A stretch of 64,000 bases of DNA from Metasolibacillus sp. (GTDB taxonomy: Bacteria > Bacillota > Bacilli > Bacillales_A > Planococcaceae): assembly GCF_025291715.1 (NCBI RefSeq), contig NZ_JAMBIZ010000004.1, forward strand, positions 124,001 to 188,000, written 5' to 3'. Of this stretch, positions 21,591 through 62,265 are shown piece after piece. The notes beneath the pieces were generated by a model. The model ran no database searches, had not been told where the DNA came from, and was given only the letters and a program-made list of their open reading frames with translations. How positions within the stretch are numbered: position 1 is the stretch's first letter; the number at the start of each line of letters is the position of its first letter. The position numbers were made by a program, and so were the translations under genes.

Positions 21591-21608
21591 CTGCTAGACA
21601 TCTAGCAG
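21591..21608. repeat. Short perfect palindrome upstream of fba
   Basis: CTGCTAG-ACAT-CTAGCAG lies about 50 bases before the fba start, without a T-run on either side. It could be an operator or a leader hairpin of fba; the function is unknown. Confidence 0.45.
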
Positions 21609-21675
21609 GGAAAAGCCTTTAATTTCATTTTAGACAAGCTTTCACTTCGTCCAAATATTGCACGTCTCTATCATA

Positions 21676-21716
21676 ACAAAAATGAAGGTGTCTGAAAAGT
21701 TATTTCAAACACCTTC
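21676..21716 (-). terminator. Intrinsic terminator after spo0F
   Basis: The last codons and stop of spo0F form the upstream arm: GAAGGTGT-t-TGAAA pairs with TTTCA-g-ACACCTTC across a 5-base loop, then ATTTTTGTT follows on the minus strand. Overlap of the stem with the stop codon means that translation and termination touch here. Confidence 0.85.
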
Positions 21717-22082
21717 GCTTTTACCACCACTTAGTATTTCATTCACTGCATCTCGCACTTCAAAAATATTAAACGGTTTTGTAAAATATTTTGTTGCACC
21801 TAGCGCAAATGCTTCATCAATGAGCGTTTGCTCGCCATATGCTGTCATCATCACAACATTTATTTCGTCGCTTAGTGTTCGTAGCTCACGCAATATTTCA
21901 ATACCGTTCATCCCTGGAATTTTCATATCAAGCAAGATGCAATCAATTTTTTCATTTTTGAATATGTCTAATGCTTCCATGCCATTTGATGCTAAAAAGG
22001 TTTCATACCCTTCTTTTTTAAAAACCTCATTTAGCAATAATCGAATGCCATGTTGATCGTCTACTATTAATATGTTTGTCAT
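21705..22082 (-). CDS. spo0F: Sporulation initiation phosphotransferase Spo0F
   Basis: Single-domain response regulator of 125 residues that carries phosphate from the sporulation kinases to Spo0B in the phosphorelay. The acidic pocket is D8-D9, the phosphorylated Asp is D52 in LLDMKIPGMNG, Thr is in MMTAYGEQ, and the conserved Lys is in KYFTKPFNIFEVRDA. There is no output domain, and MTNILIVDDQHGIRLLLNEVF is close to B. subtilis Spo0F up to the N-terminus. AGGAG precedes Met1. Confidence 0.95.
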   Translation of the reverse strand: MTNILIVDDQHGIRLLLNEVFKKEGYETFLASNGMEALDIFKNEKIDCILLDMKIPGMNGIEILRELRTLSDEINVVMMTAYGEQTLIDEAFALGATKYFTKPFNIFEVRDAVNEILSGGKSEGV

Positions 22083-22344
22083 TTCGGATATCTCCTATTT
22101 GTGTGCTTCAAGTGGGTAAAATTGTATGTAAATAAAAAACTCATCTAATCATAAGTGATAAAGGTTTTTTGGATGCTACTGGTCACCTTATCGTAATATT
22201 AATTTCACCTTCCACAGCAATTAATATATTTATAACACACTTCTTTATTTTTTATGAATGAGTAAACATTCAGTGCATACACTTGAACAGTTGCTAAATA
22301 AAGATGGATATGTCACCAGTAGCATTGAGTTATGAATCCATAGA
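22083..22344. other. Gene-free stretch upstream of spo0F
   Basis: I see no convincing gene. It contains an 11-bp inverted repeat (ATGCTACTGGT at 22173-22183 and ACCAGTAGCAT at 22315-22325) enclosing about 130 bases, and inside it an 18-bp palindrome close to a FadR site. The spo0F promoter should be in its left part. Confidence 0.6.
22255..22272. promoter_or_regulatory. FadR-like palindromic operator candidate
   Basis: TGAATGAGTAAACATTCA is an 18-bp palindrome (TGAATG and CATTCA) that fits the B. subtilis FadR consensus TGAATGAMTANTCATTCA at all but two defined positions. It lies 173 bases before spo0F and next to the decayed pheromone cassette; no obvious fatty-acid gene is adjacent. Confidence 0.45.
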
Positions 22345-22445
22345 TTAATGGATGCTTGGTAAACCTGAGAGTTGCTCTGAGAAGAATTGTACTCCCTTAC
22401 AGTGAAGATTAATTCTTCTCACATTTTATAGCCTTCAACTATCTT
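22345..22445 (-). pseudogene. Decayed third copy of the PapR-like peptide gene
   Basis: Directly behind the second peptide gene, the minus strand reads GVQFFSEQLSGLPSIH and a stop, aligned with the ends of the two intact peptides (GAQVFSGKLPDLPSLP and GVQVFSESLPDLPSRP). Upstream, DNA similar to the end of the signal-peptide coding region is still visible (AGTTGAAGGCTATAA against AGTTGGAAGTTATCA), but frame breaks and deletions remove the start and the secretion signal. Confidence 0.7.
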
Positions 22446-22476
22446 AGATTAAAAGCTTTTATATTTAGCACATCAT

Positions 22477-22641
22477 CTAAGGTCTGCTCGGTAAATCTGG
22501 TAAGGATTCTGAGAAGACTTGTACTCCTACATTTAACGATATTTCACTAACAGGTGAGACTGTTTCCGCCTGTGCTTGATAACTTCCAACTGATAATAAA
22601 ATCACGCAACCTACAAATAAATTAACTACAAACTTTTTCAT
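22477..22641 (-). CDS. Small exported peptide 2, PapR-like pheromone precursor
   Basis: A 54-residue precursor: MKK start, hydrophobic signal segment, probable cleavage after AQA near residue 25, then about 29 residues ending in SESLPDLPSRP. It is a tandem duplicate of peptide 1 of exactly the same length. AAGGAG is 7 bases before the ATG at 22641, and only 13 bases separate it from the stop of peptide 1; the frame is open further upstream, but the ribosome site decides. Next to a PlcR-like receptor, the likely role is an exported, processed and re-imported signal peptide. The core DLP also occurs in the B. cereus PapR signal (ADLPFEF); similarity is short, so the family call is inference. 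Confidence 0.75.
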   Translation of the reverse strand: MKKFVVNLFVGCVILLSVGSYQAQAETVSPVSEISLNVGVQVFSESLPDLPSRP

Positions 22642-22654
22642 AGCAGTACTCCTT

Positions 22655-22819
22655 TTAAGGTAGGCTTGGTAAATCTGGGAGTTTCCCTGAGAAGACTTGT
22701 GCTCCCACATTTAACGATATTTCACTAACAGGTGAGACTGTTTCTGCTGGTGCTTGATAAACACCAACTGATAAAAGAATGATACAGCATACAACTAAAT
22801 TAGCCAAAAACTTTTTCAT
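22655..22819 (-). CDS. Small exported peptide 1, PapR-like pheromone precursor
   Basis: A 54-residue precursor with MKK start, hydrophobic signal segment, probable cleavage after APA near residue 25, and a mature part (ETVSPVSEISLNVGAQVFS...) ending in SGKLPDLPSLP. GGGGGTG is 5 bases before the ATG at 22819. It begins 77 bases after the stop of the PlcR-like regulator gene, on the same strand, as papR follows plcR in the B. cereus group. The two copies are nearly identical in the middle and differ in the last 10 residues, where the active signal would lie. Confidence 0.77.
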   Translation of the reverse strand: MKKFLANLVVCCIILLSVGVYQAPAETVSPVSEISLNVGAQVFSGKLPDLPSLP

Positions 22820-22896
22820 CGTAACACCCCCTTTTATTAGTAATTTATTACAAACCAAAAGATAAATCAATATTTTTTTAAAATTCATAATATATT

Positions 22897-23760
22897 TTAT
22901 AGATCTTTTTGTAATTGCTCCTTTAATTGTTCTGTAATTCTAATATAATCAATTTTATTTTGAAGCTCAAAAAGACTTGTTGCTTGTCGAATATAAATTT
23001 CAGCATCAGTAAATGCTTTTTCTAAAATGGATAAACGGGCTGCTTGAAATAATAACTCGCCTAATCTATATAATGTTTCATTTTCTAAGCAAAGCTTAAT
23101 CGCCTGTTTACAGCAAAGTAACGCATCTTTGATATCTTCTTTATATGCTAGCGTTCTTGATTTTCCATGTAGAATTTTAATTTTCAAACGATCATTTATA
23201 TGATTTTGTGCAAAATTTGAAGTACAAAGTTCATAATAATGAAGCGATGTATCATATTCTTCCCTCTCAAAATAAACTACAGCTAGACTGCTCATAATTT
23301 CAATATCCAATGCTTCCTCTACTTTTCCCTCTGATGGTAAAAGAGATTTAAAAATTTGAATAGATTTGGTGCTATTTTTTTCTAGAAAATATGCACAAAT
23401 CCCCTCATTCCACTTCAAAAATTTACGCTCTTTTGAGGAAAGCATGCTTTTATTGTGCAATTCATTCATAATAATATAAGAAACTGATTCATAATCTCGT
23501 TGATGTACTAATTTTCGCACAAGCTTTTCAACTTCTGAATTTGACTGAACTGGTGTAGAATGTACATCATGAAAGAAGTTTTCGATTGGTACGCCTAATT
23601 TTTCAGCAATTTGGTGCATCACAACGCTCGATGGCGAACTGCCACCCTTTTCAAAGTTGCTAATCATAGCTTGTGTGCATATTCCTTTTGCTAATTGAGC
23701 TTGTGTATAACCCATTTTCTTTCTATAATATTTAATGTTTTTTGCAATTGTTTGTAACAT
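22897..23760 (-). CDS. PlcR-like HTH/TPR regulator (RRNPP family)
   Basis: Cytoplasmic regulator of 287 residues, close to the length of PlcR. Residues 1-65 are an XRE-type helix-turn-helix (YTQAQLAKGICTQAMISNFE, then AEKLGVPIENFF). The rest is all helical with TPR-like repeats (for example AVVYFEREEYDTSLHYYELC and LLFQAARLSILEKAFTDAEI), the fold that binds signal peptides in PlcR, NprR and Rap proteins. Two small exported peptide genes follow on the same strand, which fits a receptor with its own pheromones. AGGAG is 6 bases before Met1. The promoter region is shared with the divergent ywjG gene. Targets are not visible in this window. Confidence 0.85.
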   Translation of the reverse strand: MLQTIAKNIKYYRKKMGYTQAQLAKGICTQAMISNFEKGGSSPSSVVMHQIAEKLGVPIENFFHDVHSTPVQSNSEVEKLVRKLVHQRDYESVSYIIMNELHNKSMLSSKERKFLKWNEGICAYFLEKNSTKSIQIFKSLLPSEGKVEEALDIEIMSSLAVVYFEREEYDTSLHYYELCTSNFAQNHINDRLKIKILHGKSRTLAYKEDIKDALLCCKQAIKLCLENETLYRLGELLFQAARLSILEKAFTDAEIYIRQATSLFELQNKIDYIRITEQLKEQLQKDL

Positions 23761-23786
23761 CTTATTCTCCTAACGTATACTTTTTC

Positions 23787-23802
23787 ATTCAATATAATGA
23801 AT
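23787..23802. promoter_or_regulatory. Palindrome in the divergent regulator/ywjG promoter region
   Basis: ATTCA-ATATAA-TGAAT lies between the PlcR-like regulator gene (start 23760) and ywjG (start 23847). It is a candidate autoregulatory site. Before the peptide genes a half-site ATTCATAATAT occurs at 22881-22891. It does not match the B. cereus PlcR box. Confidence 0.35.
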
Positions 23803-23846
23803 ATATTTATATTATATTTTATTTTAATATCAATGAGGTGTTTTTT

Positions 23847-24407
23847 ATGTCAAAAATATTAACAACACAATTAACAGGTGTCCTGCAAAAGATTCAACAA
23901 AATGAAGAGGATGCGATTGAGGAAACTGCGCGTCTATTAGCACAGGCTGCTATTGGGCAAGGTACAGTGTATTTTGCATGCTTTGATGAAATGCAAGGCA
24001 TTGCTCAAAATGCGCTGTTGTCAGCAGAGCCAATGGCAAAGGTAGCACTATGGACAGCAGATACACTTCTGACAGAAACGGATCGCGTCTGCATTTTTAC
24101 ACGTCATGCTAATAATTCAGATGCCCTTGAATTAGCACAACAGCTTTATGATGCATTTATTCCTTTTGCAGCAATTGCTTGCGAGCAAGCTAGCAATGAC
24201 AACCAGCTGAGTGAGCTTGCTTACACCTATGTTTCTCTAAACTTACGCAATCCCATTTTGCCACATCCTACAAAGCTTGGTACCCGTATTGTGATGCCAT
24301 CTTTATTAGCTGCTCTTTATGTCTATGAAGCAATTAAGCTGTCCTACGATGAAATGCTCGTTTTAGACGAGGATGACGATGAGGAAATTCAATCACCTTT
24401 TGGGTAA
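23847..24407 (+). CDS. ywjG: DUF2529 protein (YwjG)
   Basis: Conserved protein of 186 residues found near spo0F and pyrG in Bacillus. It has an SIS-like sugar-phosphate binding look (VYFACFDEM, then DRVCIFTRHANNSDALELAQ), but the function is not known. The acidic tail (VLDEDDDEEIQ) is a visible feature. The open frame runs further upstream, yet GAGGTG is 6 bases before the ATG at 23847, which also gives the usual N-terminus. It is the only plus-strand gene in this run. Confidence 0.85.
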   Translation: MSKILTTQLTGVLQKIQQNEEDAIEETARLLAQAAIGQGTVYFACFDEMQGIAQNALLSAEPMAKVALWTADTLLTETDRVCIFTRHANNSDALELAQQLYDAFIPFAAIACEQASNDNQLSELAYTYVSLNLRNPILPHPTKLGTRIVMPSLLAALYVYEAIKLSYDEMLVLDEDDDEEIQSPFG

Positions 24408-24410
24408 TCA

Positions 24411-24448
24411 AAAACGGCAGTTTGGAGAGCTTACCAAACTGCCGTTTT
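24411..24448. terminator. Bidirectional terminator between ywjG and pyrG
   Basis: AAAACGGCAGTTTGG pairs perfectly with CCAAACTGCCGTTTT around an 8-base loop; A- and T-runs at the ends make it work in both directions for these convergent genes. Confidence 0.9.
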
Positions 24449-24453
24449 CCTAT

Positions 24454-26052
24454 TTATTTATTGAATGCGGCACCAACAAACTCACGGAATAATGGTTGTG
24501 GACGTTGTGGGCGTGAAATTAGCTCTGGGTGGAACTGTGCAGCTACGAAGAATTTCTTCTCTGGTAGCTCGATAACTTCCACTAGTTTATTGTCAGGTGA
24601 AACGCCTGAGAATACTAAGCCTTCTGCCTCCATTGCTTCACGGAACTCATTATTAAATTCATAGCGGTGGCGGTGACGCTCGTACACTAACTCTTCACCG
24701 CTGTATGCCGAACGTGCTACTGAGCCCTCTTTTAGCTTACATGGATATAAGCCTAAACGTAGTGTACCACCTAAATCTGTATCCTCTGATTGATCTGGTA
24801 AGAAGTCAATAATTGGATATTTTGTGCCATTATCTAATTCTGTTGAATGTGCGCCTTCTAGCCCCATCACATTGCGAGCAAATTCAATTGTCGCAAGCTG
24901 CATACCTAAGCAAATACCTAAGAATGGTACATTATTTTCACGCGCATAGCGAATTGCTTCAATTTTCCCTTCAATACCACGATCGCCAAAGCCACCTGGT
25001 ACTAAAATGCCATCTGCTTGGTTTAATAGCTCTTCCACATTTTCAGCTGTTACATTTTCAGCGTTTACCCAATCAATTTCGATATCTGAATTGTAAACAT
25101 AGCCTGCATGCTTCAATGCCTCTACAACAGAAATATAAGCGTCCTGTAGCTCTACATATTTCCCTACTAGAGCAATGCGTGTTTTGTTTTCTAAGTTTTT
25201 CACTTTATGGACAAGCTCTTTCCAATCTTCCATATCCGCTTTTGGTGCTTTAATGCCAAAATGATCTAAAACGATTTGGTCAAAGCCTTGTGCAAGCAAG
25301 TTTAGTGGCACTTCATATAAATGCTCTGCATCGCGTGATTCAATAATATCCGTTGAGCGAACATCACAGAATAGCGCAATTTTATCCTTCATTTCCTGTG
25401 GTACAGGCTGCTCTGTACGCAATACGATAATATTCGGTTGAATACCTAATGAACGCAATTCTTTTACAGAGTGTTGAGTTGGCTTTGTTTTCATTTCCCC
25501 AGCCGCTTTAATATAAGGCATTAATGTACAATGGATATACATCACATTTTCATGCCCTAAATCACGGCGCATTTGGCGAATCGCTTCTAAAAATGATAGT
25601 GATTCGAAATCTCCTACTGTACCGCCAATTTCAGTAATAACAACATCCGCAGACGTTTCACGACCAGCACGTTGAATGCGGTCTTTAATTTCATTTGTTA
25701 CATGAGGAATTACTTGAACTGTTCCACCGTTATAATCGCCACGACGTTCTTTGTTTAAAACAGATTGATACACTTTACCTGAGGTAACTGTTGAGTGTTT
25801 GCCAAGGTTTATATCAATAAAGCGCTCATAGTGACCTAAGTCTAAATCTGCCTCTGCGCCATCATCTGTTACGAAAACCTCACCATGCTGGTATGGGCTC
25901 ATCGTACCTGGATCGATATTTAAATATGGATCAAACTTTTGAATTGTTACTTCTAATCCACGGTTTTTTAATATGCGACCTAGTGATGCAGCAACAATCC
26001 CCTTACCTAGTGAAGATACAACGCCACCTGTTACGAAAATATACTTTGTCAT
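24454..26052 (-). CDS. pyrG: CTP synthase
   Basis: Aminates UTP to CTP with glutamine. The 532 residues have the N-terminal amidoligase domain ([15 protein letters not shown]-loop near residue 15; then [16 protein letters not shown] region near residue 148) and the C-terminal class I glutamine amidotransferase domain with the nucleophile Cys in FLGICLGMQ (near residue 380) and the His-Glu pair in FHPELISRP. Start: AAGGAGG lies before the ATG at 26052; the longer frame to 26091 would begin inside the leader. Regulation by a CTP-sensing attenuator is visible upstream. Confidence 0.97.
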
Positions 26053-48119: not shown

Positions 48120-48824
48120 ATGAAATTAATTAAACTTCTTGTCTTTTCATTTATCTGTTTTGTAGTATTTTCTGGATTTTCAGTCCTTGCTTCAGCAGAA
48201 TTATCAAACCCTAAATCTGAAGTAGATTTATCAAAATTTGAATTTAAAGAAGTCAAAATAGAAAATCTATCACCTGAATTTGGAGAATTTTCTCCGTCTG
48301 ATGTTGAGGAGCTATTACCATCTAAAGAACAATTTTCACCATACTCTTCTGCATACTATCCTGGTACTTCAACATTAATACAATCAGGTGATATTCTATA
48401 TTCTAATAAAAGCATAGCAACATTCTATGCAGGTCATATTGCTATAGTAGGCACAGACTTCCAAGTTAAACACACGCTACCGCTTACTCCAAGAGCATCC
48501 CAATCTGTACAATCGTATTTCAATCAATTTGACGATATTTATCTTATAAAACCTCTAAATGCAACTGCAGCCCAAAGATATCAAGCTGCTCAATGGGCTA
48601 CAAATAATCTAAATAACATTAGCCACTATTCTTTTAATGGAAATTTAAGTGTTATTTCTGCAAATTACTGTTCAAAATTTGTTTGGCAAGCCTATCAATT
48701 CGGCGCATCAGTAGATATTTCAACTTTTAAACATATTGGTGGTGGTGGGTTAAACGCTCCTATTTTTGTACTCCCAGATTCAATTAAATCAGATAGTGAT
48801 AACATTAGTATCAGGCTTCAATAA
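48120..48824 (+). CDS. Secreted permuted papain-like (NlpC/P60, YiiX-type) hydrolase
   Basis: Protein of 234 residues with a signal peptide (MKLIK start, cleavage after ASA near residue 26), an acidic proline- and serine-containing linker to about residue 75, and a permuted NlpC/P60-like domain: SGDILYSN, the His in YAGHIAIVG (near residue 104), and the Cys in ANYCSKFVWQAYQ (near residue 183). In this circularly permuted group the His comes before the Cys, as seen here. Members cleave amide bonds in peptidoglycan peptides or lipids; the exact substrate is unknown. AAAGGAGG precedes Met1. It stands alone beside decayed DNA. Confidence 0.8.
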   Translation: MKLIKLLVFSFICFVVFSGFSVLASAELSNPKSEVDLSKFEFKEVKIENLSPEFGEFSPSDVEELLPSKEQFSPYSSAYYPGTSTLIQSGDILYSNKSIATFYAGHIAIVGTDFQVKHTLPLTPRASQSVQSYFNQFDDIYLIKPLNATAAQRYQAAQWATNNLNNISHYSFNGNLSVISANYCSKFVWQAYQFGASVDISTFKHIGGGGLNAPIFVLPDSIKSDSDNISIRLQ

Positions 48825-56445: not shown

Positions 56446-59400
56446 TTACTTTTCAGTTGTTGTGAAGCGACGACGTAATAACACAAAGCCTAATGCTACT
56501 AGCACAATACCTGCAAAGATAGCAGCTGTTTGGTCTGCATCATTTGTTTGCGGTAATTTGTTTTGGTTATTATTCGCTGCCCCAAGCACATTTGCTGCTT
56601 GTTGCAATTCATGTAGAAGACTTCTCACTAAGTCCATATTTACAAGCTCATCAACATATGCCTGCTCCTCTGGAGATAGTGCTTCATATTGCTTAACGAA
56701 CGCTTCTAGTTCTTGAATTGTTTGTTGAAGCTTCGCTGGATTTTTCGATAGCTCCTCAACAATTTGCGGAATGTTTGGCACTTCATAACGTACTGGATCC
56801 TCTGATCCTGGCGTTGGTGGTACCGGTACAATACCTGGGATTTCAGGTATTTTCTTAATTACTTCCTCAACTGCTGGAGGTGTTGTCGGTTTCTCCGGTG
56901 TTGTTGGTGGAGTTGTTGGCTCCTCCGGTACTGTCGGTTCCTCTGGTGTCAGTGGAGTTGTTGGCTCCTCTGGCACTGTTGGTTTTTCTGGTGTTGGTGG
57001 CGTTACTGGTACTTCTGGTGTTGGTGGTGTACCACCGCCACCTCCGCCTCCACCACCTGGTGGTGCTGGTACTGGCTTAGCTAATGCTGCACAATCTTGT
57101 ACTGTAATCGCAAGTGGTGACTCTGTACCTACAACTACTACATAGTTACCTGGTTCTACAGTATAAGGAACAGTTGCTTTACCTTCTGCATCAGTTGTAC
57201 CTGTTGCAATTGTATTGCCTGCTTTATCTTTAATAACGAACGCTACCTCTTTACGAGGGTTACCGTTCACATCTTGAATTGTTAGTGTGAATAATGGGCA
57301 TGCGTTTTCTGGGACTTTTACTGCTGCTCCACATACTTCGTCTGTGTAGCTTACTGTAATATTTCCTAGCAATACACTAGCCTCATTATAAACAGCATAT
57401 TCTTTACCTTGTTCTAATTTTGCTTTGTCTTCAACTGTAATTTGACCATTTGCATCAGTTGTACCTGTTACTACAGTTACACCTGCTTTGTCTTTAATTA
57501 CAATTTTCACATTAGCACCAACAGGTTGGTTATCTTTATTATTTACTGTTAATGTGAATTGTGGACAAGAGTTTTTAATTGCAGTGCCTTTACAGTTATC
57601 TGTATAAGTTACCTTAACTTCGTCAATTCTCTCGCCTTTTGAGCCATTTGGATTTACTTCATAGACAACTACTTTTCCTGGTTGTTGAGTTGATGGTAAT
57701 GTAATTTTGCCATCCCCATCTGTTGTATATTCTGTCTCAACACCATTTGCATCTTCTACAATTACTTTTGTATTTACTTTTGGTGTTGTACCGTCTGGGC
57801 CGATTACTGTGATTTCAAACTCTGTACACCCACGAGGTTTTGTCACTTCATCTTTACAATCTGCTGTAGTATAAGTGACTTCGAAATCCTCACCAAATGA
57901 TACCGATTTTCCAGGTTCAATCTCATAGGATACGACCGTATAGTCACCTGGTGCAATTGTATATCTTTCACCATTTTGATTTGTTGCAAATGTAATTCTA
58001 CCATCTGCTTCAACAGTCGCTTCAAATTGTACATGTGTATCTTTGTTTTCAATTACTACCTTAGTACCAGCTTTTAAAGGACCATCTTCGTTTTCAATAG
58101 TCAATGTGAATGCTGGACATGCTGGTATTGGTTGAACTGTATACTCACAATCTGTATCAACTGTGAATTCATCAAGAGGGGCAGTAACTCCATCTTCATA
58201 AACTACATAATCAGCTGGTGGAAGACCTGTAGCTGGAAGGTTATCAAATACTACCTCTCCATCTGCATTTGTTGTACCAGTGAATCGTGTATTAGAATCT
58301 TGTTTGTCAACAATCTCTATATCTACATTTTCACGTGGTTTACCATCTCTATCATTGATTGTTAATGTAAATGTTTCACATGCTCTTGCTACTGCCAATT
58401 CAGCCTCACATGGTGTAGAAGATGTATAATCAATTTCCACTGTACCTAAATATTGATTACCTTCGTACACTTTATAAGTACCGGCTGGCGTTGTAGATGG
58501 CAATGTAAATTTACCATCATTACCAGTTGTCTCCGTAGCAATTGTAGCATTATTTGAATCTTTTAAAATAACCGTTACGTTTGGACGTGGGTTATTATTG
58601 TCATCGTTGATTGTGATTGTTACTGACGGACAAGCATTTACTTGCTGTACTTCAACCTCACAATCAGCACCGTACTTCACAGTAATTTCAGCATTTTCTA
58701 AAACAATTGTATCTACACCATCTTTTACTTCAACAGTGTATAATCCCGCCTTTACAGCTGTTTCTGAACCACCCGTACCTGGGCGTTTTACTGTAAATTG
58801 CCCATTTGAATCTGTTGATCCTTGAGCTACCTCATCACCATTGCTATTGAATAATGTGATGTCTTTACCTGAGCCAATCGGATTACCATTTGCATCGTTC
58901 ACTGTAATTGCGAATTTTGGACATGCGTTTGGATCAGTAACACTTTCAATATTTTCAACAACATACGCTTTACCATCTCTTGAAACATCCAAATCGGCGT
59001 TCAACGTGACAACAAATGGTACAACTACATCATAACCACTTGGCTGTGCTTCTCTTAATGTGTATTTACCATAGCGCACATCTTCAAAGACTAAAAGTCC
59101 ATCAACATCTGTTACACCTTCATCAAGCTTAACTGTATTGTTCTTATTCCATAATTCAAACGTAACTCCTTCAAATTCCTCACGGACACCTGTTAAAGGA
59201 TTCACTTTGAACTTTTTCAGCTGCAATGTACCTTTTAAAGGTGAAGCATCCGAATCTGACGAACTATATTGGAAGAATGCTGATTCATCATTTGAATCAG
59301 TTGTACCTGCTGCTGAAGCTCCTGCATAGCCAATAGACGCTTCGTTTGATACTGTTTCCCCAGCGTTACCATCCCCCATAAAGAATGTAGAATACGTAAC

Positions 59401-62265
59401 AATATAGCCTTTACCATTTAATTCACCTAAATCAAGGCTAAAGCTACCATCTGGATTTAAAACAACATCATTTTCATCAATTACAATAGCACTACCTACA
59501 TTCTGCGAAACACCTGCTTCATTTAGTTTAATTTCTTGCTTTCTAAATGAATTTGTTAATATCTTCTGATTAGCTGAAGGTTTATCTGTTAATGTTATAT
59601 TTCCTAACTGCGAGTTAGAAGCATTCACCGTTACTGTCCAGTTGATAACATCTTGTGCTGGAACTGCATTTGCTGATTTTGTAATTAACTCATTTGCACG
59701 ATTACTAATTGTTGCTGTCGCATTATATGTGTAGTCGCCATTATGTGGTGTATCTAGCACAGCCTCGTTTGTGTATTGACGCGCATCACCACTGCTTTGA
59801 CCATAAATATCATCAGCATCTTTAGTTGTGTATTCGATTAAATATGCTTCATTATTTTCATCGTTATCTAAACTTGCAAATGTAATAACGAAGCCGGTTA
59901 CTTTACCGTCTGTCACCGTTTCTGTAACTGACCATCTAGCAGCATCTAACTCGCCATCTTTTGTTCCTTCTTCTGTTGTTAAATTCAGTTTAAAAATCTT
60001 AATTTGGTCTTTTAATAGCTGACCATCCGGAACTGGAATATAGTGACCTGCACCAAGCGTATCTGCTAATGTAGCCCCTTCAATATCTTGCTTATTGATA
60101 TTAACACCGATGCCCCAAGAGAATTCTTGTGTGTTATTATCTACACTTACTCGTTTATAGCCATTATTATTTGTTGGCGAATCTTGATTAGGTGTATAGT
60201 TGTCTGTTCTATTTAAAGCTTGATTACTAGTTGAAGTCACACCATCCCATGTCGCATCTGCTGTGTTGATATAAGCAGTTGCTACACCACCGTTTGGTTT
60301 AATATCATATTTCGTTTTGTATCGGATAGTAACTGTACTTCCAGCTGGAATACTTGATGTGAATTCTACTTTAAAACCTTCGTTGCCCACTGCTGGCGCG
60401 TTACCAGTTTTATCTGTAATAGTATAAGCGGTAGGAGCTATACCTGTAACATGATAAAATTCTGAGCCACTCCATTGTGTCAACGTATGCTTTAACGTGT
60501 CCCCAACTTTGTTATTTGTTGTGAACTCATCCTCAATAACAAAATTGCGCAGTTCTTTTTCGGCATTAATTGTTAATGTCCACTCAATTGTTTTATTTAC
60601 ATAGTCAATTGTGCTACGTGATTTGTTAAAGATTCCTGGTGTAAGACCAATAGTAGCTGTATCTGCCCCAGTATCTCCTCTTGTTACAGTATTTGTTACT
60701 GTACCTTGGTTCGCCTCTGTAACAAATTCACCTTCTAGCTCTGTATCATAAACAATTTTAAATGCCGATGTCACTTCACCATTTGGTCCTGTAGTATTGG
60801 ATGGACGATCAAAGTTTAGAACAAAATTATAATTATTTTCTGTTAACGTATAATCTGTACCTTTAGTTAACAATGTAGAAGATTGTTCAGTTTGACCATC
60901 ATTCGATAATGTCACACGGTATACACTAAAGCTTGTGTAGTCAATTTTATGCTTCCCAGTTGTTGGATGCTGACCTGTTAATGCATCTGTTAATGTTGCT
61001 TGATTTGCAGGAATTTTTTGCCCCAGCCAATTGTACTTAATTGTCCACGTTGATTTATATTTATCACCTGCTCTTGTTTTATCTAAGCTAGGTCCATATT
61101 GCACAGTTTGAGTGCCGCTTGCTGTCGTATTTGCTGGAATCCCTGTTCCTGTCAATGTAGCTACATTTGTATACTGCATGCTTGAATTTGTTGGATCAGC
61201 TGTTACGATGGTATTGTATGTCACTTTATATGCATAATTACCATCTGTTAAATTAATAGGAAATGCAGTTGCTGAATTATTTGTAGCATCAGGTATACCC
61301 GGGCTATTTGGATTAAATCCATTTAAGCCTACTTTATAGCGTTCAACAGTAATATTTCCTGTTAACGCATGTTTAGCATCTGGTACATCATTTAAACTTG
61401 CACCATTTAACTTTTGTCCACCTGTATTTATCCACACTGTCCATGGAATTGTTACTGTACCATTTGCAGCACGAGCGATAGTTCCGGCACTTTTTGTTAG
61501 TAGGTTACCGCTACCTGTTGGTGCAAATTCAAATGGTAAATTAACTGTTGCTCCACCTTCAATGGGAATAACAAGTGTTTGTTCAAGTTCTTCTTCACTA
61601 GCAAAATTACCAAATTTAGCTGTGAACTCAAAATTAATATCTCCCGCTTGCGCAACTTCAATTTCGCTATTTAGTGTTACCGTTACTGTTTTTGTCACAC
61701 TATTATATGACGAGCTATAATTAGCGTATGGAGTATCTCTTGTAACATTGAAAGAACCTGATGTAAATTCTTCAATCATATTTGCAGGCAACTGGAATGT
61801 AAATGTTGAGCCTATTCCATAATCTTGCCCTGGAGTTACATGGAATTTATAAAGTAAATAAACTGTATCACCCTTTTTAGGCTTTGGACCAGAGTAGCTG
61901 CTTATATTACTTTCATCAATAAGCGCTCCATTTGCATTGAAAAGCTTCAAGCCTGTAAAAGACATTGCCACATCACCCTGCATGTTAGCTGGCGCTGCCA
62001 ACGGACCAATATTTAATGGTGCTACTGTAGGCAACTGTACATCAGCCGTATCTCCACTTGTTGTAGCTGAATCGTCTTCCTCACTATCTATACCCTCTCC
62101 CGTATCTCCACCACTAGTAGTATCTTCTTGCTCAGTACCAGCATTATTTTCTTCTGCTGGAGGTAGTGAAGATAGGTCTTCTTCTGCAAACACCGACAAC
62201 GGTCCAATGAATGTTTGGAACACTAATAGTATTGTCAGCATTGCAATATTAATCTTTTTCCTCAT
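56446..62265 (-). CDS. Wall-anchored adhesin with Cna-B-like, cysteine-bounded repeats and LPQTN sorting signal
   Basis: Surface protein of 1939 residues. Signal peptide (residues 1-27, cut after VFA), an acidic low-complexity stretch, then about 900 residues of tandem collagen-binding/isopeptide-type beta domains (KGDTVYLLYKFHVTPGQDYG; SLDKTRAGDKYKSTWTIKYN). From about residue 1008 comes one canonical Cna-B domain (GTLQLKKFKVNPLTG...YGKYTLREAQPSGYDV), then seven related repeats of about 80-100 residues (FTLTI...DANG), each with one Cys at each end. A proline-rich wall spacer with a nine-Gly run starts near residue 1735, and a helical segment precedes the anchor: LPQTN near residue 1903, a membrane helix and RRR. 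Asn replaces the usual Gly. The start is preceded by GGAGAGAG, in a long leader that may be structured. Probable host- or surface-adhesion role (inference). Confidence 0.9.
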   Translation of the reverse strand: MRKKINIAMLTILLVFQTFIGPLSVFAEEDLSSLPPAEENNAGTEQEDTTSGGDTGEGIDSEEDDSATTSGDTADVQLPTVAPLNIGPLAAPANMQGDVAMSFTGLKLFNANGALIDESNISSYSGPKPKKGDTVYLLYKFHVTPGQDYGIGSTFTFQLPANMIEEFTSGSFNVTRDTPYANYSSSYNSVTKTVTVTLNSEIEVAQAGDINFEFTAKFGNFASEEELEQTLVIPIEGGATVNLPFEFAPTGSGNLLTKSAGTIARAANGTVTIPWTVWINTGGQKLNGASLNDVPDAKHALTGNITVERYKVGLNGFNPNSPGIPDATNNSATAFPINLTDGNYAYKVTYNTIVTADPTNSSMQYTNVATLTGTGIPANTTASGTQTVQYGPSLDKTRAGDKYKSTWTIKYNWLGQKIPANQATLTDALTGQHPTTGKHKIDYTSFSVYRVTLSNDGQTEQSSTLLTKGTDYTLTENNYNFVLNFDRPSNTTGPNGEVTSAFKIVYDTELEGEFVTEANQGTVTNTVTRGDTGADTATIGLTPGIFNKSRSTIDYVNKTIEWTLTINAEKELRNFVIEDEFTTNNKVGDTLKHTLTQWSGSEFYHVTGIAPTAYTITDKTGNAPAVGNEGFKVEFTSSIPAGSTVTIRYKTKYDIKPNGGVATAYINTADATWDGVTSTSNQALNRTDNYTPNQDSPTNNNGYKRVSVDNNTQEFSWGIGVNINKQDIEGATLADTLGAGHYIPVPDGQLLKDQIKIFKLNLTTEEGTKDGELDAARWSVTETVTDGKVTGFVITFASLDNDENNEAYLIEYTTKDADDIYGQSSGDARQYTNEAVLDTPHNGDYTYNATATISNRANELITKSANAVPAQDVINWTVTVNASNSQLGNITLTDKPSANQKILTNSFRKQEIKLNEAGVSQNVGSAIVIDENDVVLNPDGSFSLDLGELNGKGYIVTYSTFFMGDGNAGETVSNEASIGYAGASAAGTTDSNDESAFFQYSSSDSDASPLKGTLQLKKFKVNPLTGVREEFEGVTFELWNKNNTVKLDEGVTDVDGLLVFEDVRYGKYTLREAQPSGYDVVVPFVVTLNADLDVSRDGKAYVVENIESVTDPNACPKFAITVNDANGNPIGSGKDITLFNSNGDEVAQGSTDSNGQFTVKRPGTGGSETAVKAGLYTVEVKDGVDTIVLENAEITVKYGADCEVEVQQVNACPSVTITINDDNNNPRPNVTVILKDSNNATIATETTGNDGKFTLPSTTPAGTYKVYEGNQYLGTVEIDYTSSTPCEAELAVARACETFTLTINDRDGKPRENVDIEIVDKQDSNTRFTGTTNADGEVVFDNLPATGLPPADYVVYEDGVTAPLDEFTVDTDCEYTVQPIPACPAFTLTIENEDGPLKAGTKVVIENKDTHVQFEATVEADGRITFATNQNGERYTIAPGDYTVVSYEIEPGKSVSFGEDFEVTYTTADCKDEVTKPRGCTEFEITVIGPDGTTPKVNTKVIVEDANGVETEYTTDGDGKITLPSTQQPGKVVVYEVNPNGSKGERIDEVKVTYTDNCKGTAIKNSCPQFTLTVNNKDNQPVGANVKIVIKDKAGVTVVTGTTDANGQITVEDKAKLEQGKEYAVYNEASVLLGNITVSYTDEVCGAAVKVPENACPLFTLTIQDVNGNPRKEVAFVIKDKAGNTIATGTTDAEGKATVPYTVEPGNYVVVVGTESPLAITVQDCAALAKPVPAPPGGGGGGGGGTPPTPEVPVTPPTPEKPTVPEEPTTPLTPEEPTVPEEPTTPPTTPEKPTTPPAVEEVIKKIPEIPGIVPVPPTPGSEDPVRYEVPNIPQIVEELSKNPAKLQQTIQELEAFVKQYEALSPEEQAYVDELVNMDLVRSLLHELQQAANVLGAANNNQNKLPQTNDADQTAAIFAGIVLVALGFVLLRRRFTTTEK

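Follow-up and report, generated by a model that had tools for sequence, protein, structure and literature searches.

How a receptor and its pheromone can change specificity together without losing function midway is a standing question in quorum sensing. The window, that is, the whole stretch of 64,000 nt that was analysed, comes from a bacterium of the Metasolibacillus group and carries just upstream of spo0F a locus that bears on this question: behind a PlcR-like receptor gene stand two closely similar genes for peptides predicted to be exported, a decayed third copy and then spo0F. Two diverging pheromones with one receptor make the locus a possible natural intermediate, a sister strain has a diverged allele of the same block, and for each partner there is a prediction about a single residue that is testable outside the B. 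cereus group.

A receptor gene and tandem pheromone genes beside spo0F

The regulator gene (22897..23760, minus strand) encodes a protein of 287 aa with an HTH at about residues 1-64, a linker and TPR-like helix pairs at residues 74-286. It is followed on the same strand by the pheromone precursor genes A (22655..22819) and B (22477..22641), each of 54 aa, whose products end in GKLPDLPSLP and ESLPDLPSRP and thus have Leu and Arg, respectively, at P+2, the residue two after the core proline, which equals PapR Glu6. Both precursors have a hydrophobic stretch resembling a signal sequence, and an A-x-A site precedes E26. The initial annotation had described the regulator and two same-strand precursors, and the genes were found as described, export being predicted. 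The two genes share 135 of 165 bases, and most of the differing codons lie in the signal sequence and in the last ten codons. The third copy (22345..22396, minus strand), recognised as part of repeat family D2 and by its reading frame, consists of a 3′ end only (...EQLSGLPSIH*), is 71 and 83% identical to the other copies and has, in the frame ...GVQFFSEQLSGLPSIH*, Ile at P+2. The region described in the initial annotation starts at 22345 and takes in this copy, which went unnamed there. Between the pheromone genes and spo0F (21705..22082, minus strand), which is the next same-strand gene downstream and a candidate read-through target, lies an inverted repeat (22173..22325, minus strand; arms 22173-22186 and 22312-22325). 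The divergent gene ywjG (23847..24407, plus strand) forms the other flank of the cassette.

We examined how often such a small ORF stands beside a gene by chance in 323 genes, taken from the window and 400 kb of a sister genome. The filter admitted ORFs of 40-75 aa with an ATG start, a ribosome-binding-site score and a signal-like sequence, on the same strand and within 650 nt downstream. ORFs that passed were found beside 5 of the 323 genes, and ORFs ending in [LI]Pxxx beside three, all of which were RNPP-regulator loci already known from our search. The arrangement of receptor and peptide genes is more than chance.

The regulator matches the profiles PF01381 and PF18768, both over the cut-off, and no NCBIfam profile over the cut-offs. 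The best PDB match of its predicted model (pLDDT 91.4) is PlcR, and ComR, Rgg and PrgX are also among the top structure matches. In common with RNPP/RRNPP receptors it has an N-terminal HTH followed by a TPR domain, predicted to bind peptide, and a linked small gene for a precursor predicted to be exported. With the PlcR subfamily it shares the closest match in both sequence and structure, the lack of an extra helical domain between HTH and TPRs, and a PapR-like core [D/N][L/I]P at the precursor end (DLPSLP and DLPSRP versus DLPFEF). The likeness to PlcR/PapR of the B. cereus group extends to the receptor length of about 285 aa, the small Sec-type precursor encoded downstream on the same strand, the LP core of the active end and the occurrence of several receptor/pheromone types within one group.

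There are also clear differences from PlcR/PapR. The conserved-Asn pattern named in the initial annotation is not kept, the positions of PlcR Asn159 and Asn201, which we take to be contact residues, being occupied by S157 and G199. No exact match to the PlcR box, TATGNANNNNTNCATA, was found in the window. Two separate pheromone genes are present and spo0F adjoins them. Finally, among the PlcR residues reported to contact PapR Glu6 (Lys89, Gln237 and Tyr275; PMC6568020), Tyr275 lies outside the alignment used, and Lys89 and Gln237, as well as Lys87, are replaced by R88 (codon 23497..23499, minus strand), E235 (codon 23056..23058, minus strand) and H86, a set of residues that would fit a different P+2. 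Judged by these alignments, the regulator is PlcR-type and not a PlcR orthologue. The PlcR-type sensor of the initial annotation is supported in part: family, fold and linked pheromone-like genes agree with it, and the protein is PlcR-like. The PlcR paralogue PlcRa of B. cereus likewise has its own small precursor gene; it differs in that the PapRa precursor has 93 aa, is encoded upstream and carries the signal internally (PMC3519770).

The neighbourhood of spo0F raises the alternative that the regulator acts on the Spo0F protein, as Rap and NprR do, and not on transcription, all the more as NprR, itself an HTH-TPR receptor, acts on Spo0F as well (PMC9765709). The predicted model argues against it: the chain passes from the HTH (to residue 63) to TPR helices from residue 74, which leaves no room for the three-helix Spo0F-binding bundle that precedes the TPRs of Rap and NprR (PMC9765709), and the best structural match is PlcR. 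Moreover, among 148 loci with flanks of 1.5-5 kb, a receptor beside spo0F or ywjG was seen in this genus only. We consider an action on the Spo0F protein very improbable.

The linkage with pheromone-like genes outside the B. cereus group, claimed in the initial annotation and here placed between ywjG and spo0F, is well supported, and it extends to relatives: regulator and peptide are kept together in the genus, with the receptor and at least one such peptide beside ywjG in four of five genomes. In three of these the receptor lies between ywjG and spo0F; in G067 it is next to ywjG and the contig ends in the pheromone region. G066, the sister genome, has one pheromone gene with the end ESLPDLPSRH, to which the end of gene B is close, and G067 has one before the contig end (KELPDLPSRP). 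Two intact genes (KSLPDLPSRH and KELPDLPSIH) and a decayed third with Ser at P+2 are found in G068. Each of the four genomes with the locus encodes a peptide with Arg at P+2, and the other intact gene of each tandem array encodes an aliphatic residue in its place, Leu in the window and Ile in G068. G065 has no such receptor or peptides at spo0F; on the simplest reading it has lost a cassette that was acquired before the genus diversified.

Among the surveyed receptors at least 37% identical to the regulator (L005-L014 and L035-L037, repeats removed, n = 13), 12 are followed on the same strand by a small ORF of 52-61 aa for a predicted exported peptide, and the thirteenth, L012, has only a truncated one of 32 aa. 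The plasmid receptor L228, 41% identical to a receptor of the second locus treated below, has no core-ended peptide in reach, which counts against linkage. Many peptides encoded beside related receptors carry, at their end or close to it, a core [D/N/E/G][L/I]P with three residues after it. Several PlcR-type relatives (L125, L126, L134, L296, L305, L309, L314 and L315) have two to five cores inside a single precursor, such as GIPSEH, GLPTQH, DLPSQH, EIPFEF and others. In genus g13 (L033, L034, L038, L044-L048, L051-L054) the precursors of PlcR-type receptors are transcribed divergently, end mostly in [T/A][L/F/Y]DLPxxx and, where annotated starts aligned, start about 30-40 nt from the receptor start.

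Peptide position P+2 covaries with receptor position 235

All four PapR classes of the B. cereus group have Glu at P+2 (PMC5007282), and because of this constancy a relation between P+2 and the receptor would not be visible there; at the loci studied here P+2 is the switching position. Aligned columns 88 and 235 were examined because PapR Glu6 is reported to contact PlcR Lys89 and Gln237. The peptide table, entered by eye, held 53 of 131 surveyed loci plus PlcR, the remaining loci being repeats of entered ones or without an exported ORF with a recognisable end. Removal of four loci without an [LIV]P core (L013, L014, L135 and L145) reduced the table to 50 entries. Each of the two tandem loci was represented by its Arg peptide, and peptide A is thus absent from the covariation counts. 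To these we added 25 of 63 later loci, 13 of which passed the end filter and 12 of which were taken by eye (core repeated, or more residues after it), a selection that was not blind, column 235 being visible while they were chosen. The total is 75 receptor-peptide pairs, with ten plasmid loci kept outside them.

In these 75 pairs, Glu at P+2 goes with Asn or Gln at 235 in 20 of 23 cases. The three exceptions combine Glu at 235 with Lys at 88, the position of PlcR Lys89, and Lys at 88 occurs in only 3 of the 41 receptors with an acidic residue at 235, which are exactly these exceptions. Conversely, all 27 peptides with Arg (8) or Gln (19) at P+2 are paired with Asp or Glu at 235. Peptides with Ile, Val, Thr, Cys and others at P+2 are mixed at 235, and a peptide with Asp at P+2 (L029) has Glu at 235 against a plain charge rule, although its register is unsure. 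Peptide B, with Arg at P+2, fits E235; A has Leu.

When receptors at least 50% identical to each other are compared two by two, all 29 pairs with different P+2 classes also differ in their class at 235, and none of the 55 pairs with the same P+2 class does; this places 235 first of 283 columns, the pairs not being independent. On the tree, four of the five changes at 235 share a branch with one of the 12 changes at P+2 (p 6e-4 uncorrected, rank 1 of 266); with the 25 added loci, four of six coincide (18 P+2 changes; p 0.002, rank 1 of 269). The independent switches on the tree are few (four), and most P+2 changes occur without a class change at 235 (8 of 12, or 14 of 18 with the added loci). 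In a column scan without phylogeny 235 came fourth; of the three columns ranked higher, two belong to the HTH, a pattern suggestive of phylogenetic signal.

The added loci contributed nine cases of Glu with an amide, all from one genus (g59), and a tenth Glu case that is the Lys88 exception; Gln at P+2 with Glu at 235 was found in 10 of 10, from several genera, and no new Arg case appeared. Three of the ten plasmid loci have a core end, LPNQH with E, IPFEH with Q and LPYEA with H at 235; some ORFs were discarded on visual inspection as chance matches to the end pattern, and the others repeat entered relatives. At the second locus of the genus, the endings and residue 235 pair as SEP-Asn, AEP-Gln, LRP-Asp and DRP-Asp. 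The check proposed in the initial annotation, for co-variation of peptide ends with the peptide pocket, gave a positive result in that P+2 tracks 235, the position aligned with the PlcR contact Gln237. E235 and, second, R88 are the predicted readers of P+2, and the 235/88 rule, if it holds, would help to predict pheromones for unstudied PlcR-type receptors.

Block-like divergence of the sensor domain beside a constant HTH

The window genome (G000) and G066 are called the same species by the genome tool and were the only two of the species compared. Proteins at least 94.7% identical were found in G066 for 46 of the 50 window ORFs. Two of the remaining four have no match in the compared 70 kb; the other two are the regulator, at 83%, and a surface protein of 1939 aa, at 41%. 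The regulator itself is uneven: its HTH (residues 1-64) is 100% identical in amino acids (dS 0.15) and the linker plus TPRs only 78% (dS 0.62, dN 0.146); dS of this latter part to other species is 0.76 (G068) and 1.08 (G067). In 150-bp bins, identity falls to 69-86% from about 23,550 to 22,650, with the minimum of 69% in the TPR region, and G066 lacks the 300 bp that follow this stretch (past about 22,650). Outside the block the bins are 95-100% identical, with 100% from 23700 to 24749 and 98% at 22050-22199, and the flanking genes ywjG and spo0F are 100 and 98% identical, respectively.

A second PlcR-type locus lies on another contig (contig C11 of the window genome, L037, L173:8274-9137; L036 in G066), and its peptides end in INIPSEP in the window genome and in EDIPAEP in G066. 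Its receptor shows an HTH identity of 100% (dS 0.29) and a TPR identity of 77% (dS 1.32), and 22 of 24 compared ORFs are at least 95% identical, the other exception being a 166-aa ORF (77%). At both loci and in both genomes, then, sensor domain and pheromone have diverged jointly, HTH and flanks being constant, the picture that pherotype replacement would give. Metagenomic proteins extend the picture: P0002, and P0004 from residue 16, combine the same HTH residues with other TPRs, P0005 carries the TPRs of G066, and P0002 compared with the window receptor is a mosaic, 96, 76 and 90% identical over three successive parts.

From these patterns we infer that the sensor domain and the pheromones were replaced by recombination anchored in the HTH and on the spo0F side; exchange between strains is deduced here from the block divergence of two genomes. 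Rapid adaptive change of the receptor in place, and not allele exchange, might also be considered, since ligand-binding domains of signalling receptors can evolve fast and dN in linker plus TPRs reaches 0.146. However, selection on amino acids alone does not explain the divergence, because dS is high, near the between-species level, and the surrounding ORFs are near-identical, 46 of 50 being in the range of 95-100%. The same pattern at the second PlcR-type locus and the mosaic structure of P0002 also speak against it, and we regard change in place as improbable.

The explanation that we favour, with reasonable though not high confidence, is that of an autoinducing, strain-specific PlcR-type quorum sensor whose peptide-sensing half and pheromone genes are exchanged as a block; in this explanation the role as quorum sensor is likely, and the block is probably exchanged between strains. 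By the same comparison, the window strain and the sister strain are likely to respond to private signals of their own. Three elements are already known individually: PlcR-type systems, pherotypes within a group, and duplication of pheromone genes. In the open-access literature searched, neither this locus nor the P+2/235 rule turned up, and as far as that literature shows, tandem pheromone genes that are separate and diverged next to a PlcR-type receptor, the block of constant HTH and variable TPRs in the genus, the spo0F setting and the P+2/235/88 rule are new.

Other ORFs also differed between the two genomes. The 1939-aa surface protein (56446-62265), with collagen-binding and SpaA-type domains, is 41% identical over 88% in G066, and both its neighbours are 97-98% identical. 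The ORF at 48120-48824, with a weak match to permuted papain-like amidases, was unmatched in the 70 kb round the syntenic region of G066. The 166-aa ORF (L173:9847-10347), two genes from the second locus, has a weak match to YceG.

Two pheromones, their predicted promoter and spo0F

In the mechanism that we propose, the precursors would be exported by Sec and cut to their last 7-8 residues, and the mature peptides would re-enter through an oligopeptide permease and bind the TPR groove, where P+2 would be read by positions 235 and 88, the Arg of B by Glu235. The peptide-bound receptor would act on the conserved pheromone promoter and raise both pheromones. Leu at P+2 would give peptide A a weaker or altered binding; A is most likely the product of a pheromone duplication that broadens or tunes the response during a shift of specificity; a role as competitor would be the bolder alternative.

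Tandem diverged pheromone genes beside one receptor are also found in Rap/Phr systems, which differ in that Rap is not a transcriptional regulator. In Rap systems, 71 cases of duplicated pheromone genes have been described, 58 of them with different mature peptides, and the section that counts them mentions distinct adjacent precursor genes for Rap alone, the multiplicity given for PlcR being limited to repeats within a single precursor (PMC9765709). Duplicated phr genes have been proposed as intermediates in Rap-Phr specificity shifts (PMC5199041). By analogy, the most likely reading of the A and B duplication is an intermediate in a change of specificity.

On another reading, A and B would be agonists of similar effect, the second copy raising the dose or being recent and neutral. 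They share the core LPDLPS and their middles are nearly identical in DNA, as after recent duplication or gene conversion. For gene A the relatives P0013 and P0014 were found, and in P0014 a front half like that of B is combined with the A-type end GKLPDLPSLP, a mosaic which suggests that ends are exchanged between tandem copies. In phage Rap systems, duplicated pheromones have different affinities and elicit the same response (PMC11343458). Against equal agonists, 3 of the 10 end residues differ and only 1 of the 18 before them, and one of the three is at the covarying P+2. We consider two agonists of similar effect a serious possibility, although short of an even chance.

One receptor with two peptides is also known from PrgX of the Enterococcus plasmid pCF10, which has an activating peptide, cCF10, and an inhibiting one, iCF10, that come from different genes and cells; PDB titles list PrgX complexes with both. 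The roles of A and B are putative, and B might likewise be an agonist and A a self-made antagonist, whose Leu end would fill the groove without the P+2 contact and delay or sharpen the response. The retention of an Arg peptide in four of four genomes, with an aliphatic one added in both intact arrays, is consistent with such a division, as is Ile at P+2 of the decayed third window copy. A could compete with B because PapR changed from Glu6 to Ala inhibits PlcR and cannot activate it in B. cereus (PMC6568020). On the other hand, E235 does not forbid an aliphatic P+2, because the two are paired in the apparently sole pheromones of L140 and L144 (Ile) and L295 (Met). R232 of the window receptor (codon 23065..23067, minus strand), close to E235 and unusual because Phe or Leu stands there in all six further receptors of the spo0F type that were compared, and the Leu at 88 of G068 could be adaptations that accept an aliphatic peptide. 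The arrays are only two; Ser occupies P+2 in the decayed third copy of G068, and further pheromone copies may lie beyond the contig end of G067. An antagonist role of A is thus possible and rather doubtful, two agonists being somewhat likelier.

The predicted pheromone promoter (22842..22870, minus strand) consists of TTGATT, 17 nt and TAAATT, with boxes and spacing present in all four genomes with the locus. It matches the consensus at 8 of 12 positions, below the scan threshold of 9, and its function as a promoter is a prediction; promoter-like sites in 21600-23900 number 14 versus 11.5 in shuffled sequence, no excess. The 15-mer TGTAATAAATTACTA (22838-22852) overlaps it and is a candidate operator, with one exact match listed in each of five genomes and no exact second genomic match. 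A wider regulon through this 15-mer was rejected, matches with up to two mismatches not exceeding the reversed-pattern control in any of the five genomes. G065 keeps the exact 15-mer about 200 bp before spo0F (L059, G065:C1:344182-344196), likely a relic of the lost cassette. The promoter as spo0F's own old promoter was also rejected: of 121 genomes 24 passed a strict cut-off, and the 19 spo0F upstream regions drawn from these that belong to other genera are without it and score 14-23 (99th percentile of shuffled sequence, 28). The corresponding region of G065 scores 52, with a shuffled maximum of 32, and the staying of the promoter before spo0F in G065 is suggestive, no more.

If transcription from the pheromone promoter reads into spo0F, cell density would feed into the sporulation phosphorelay, and a private signal would act directly on it. 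A hairpin before spo0F is terminator-like in G067 (-13.7 kcal/mol, z -2.7) and weaker in G068 (-7.5, z -1.6), which argues against read-through in those genomes. The same place in the window folds weakly (-5.3, z -0.8), and by this comparison read-through in the window strain is possible. A search of 21600-24000 for known RNA families gave no Rfam match at E up to 1. A more far-reaching reading would unite a natural agonist/antagonist pair whose P+2 sets the sign of the signal (Arg for an activator, Leu or Ile for a competitor), the same position, read by 235 and 88, as a family-wide specificity switch, and swapping of TPR-pheromone blocks between strains, which would change private channels feeding spo0F; as a whole we think it unlikely.

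The inverted repeat between the pheromone genes and spo0F, with arms of 14 nt, occurs only at this locus in four genomes and not in G065. A mobile element as its carrier was rejected, matches in the five genus genomes being confined to this locus. In G068 the repeat is partly repeated after the pheromone units.
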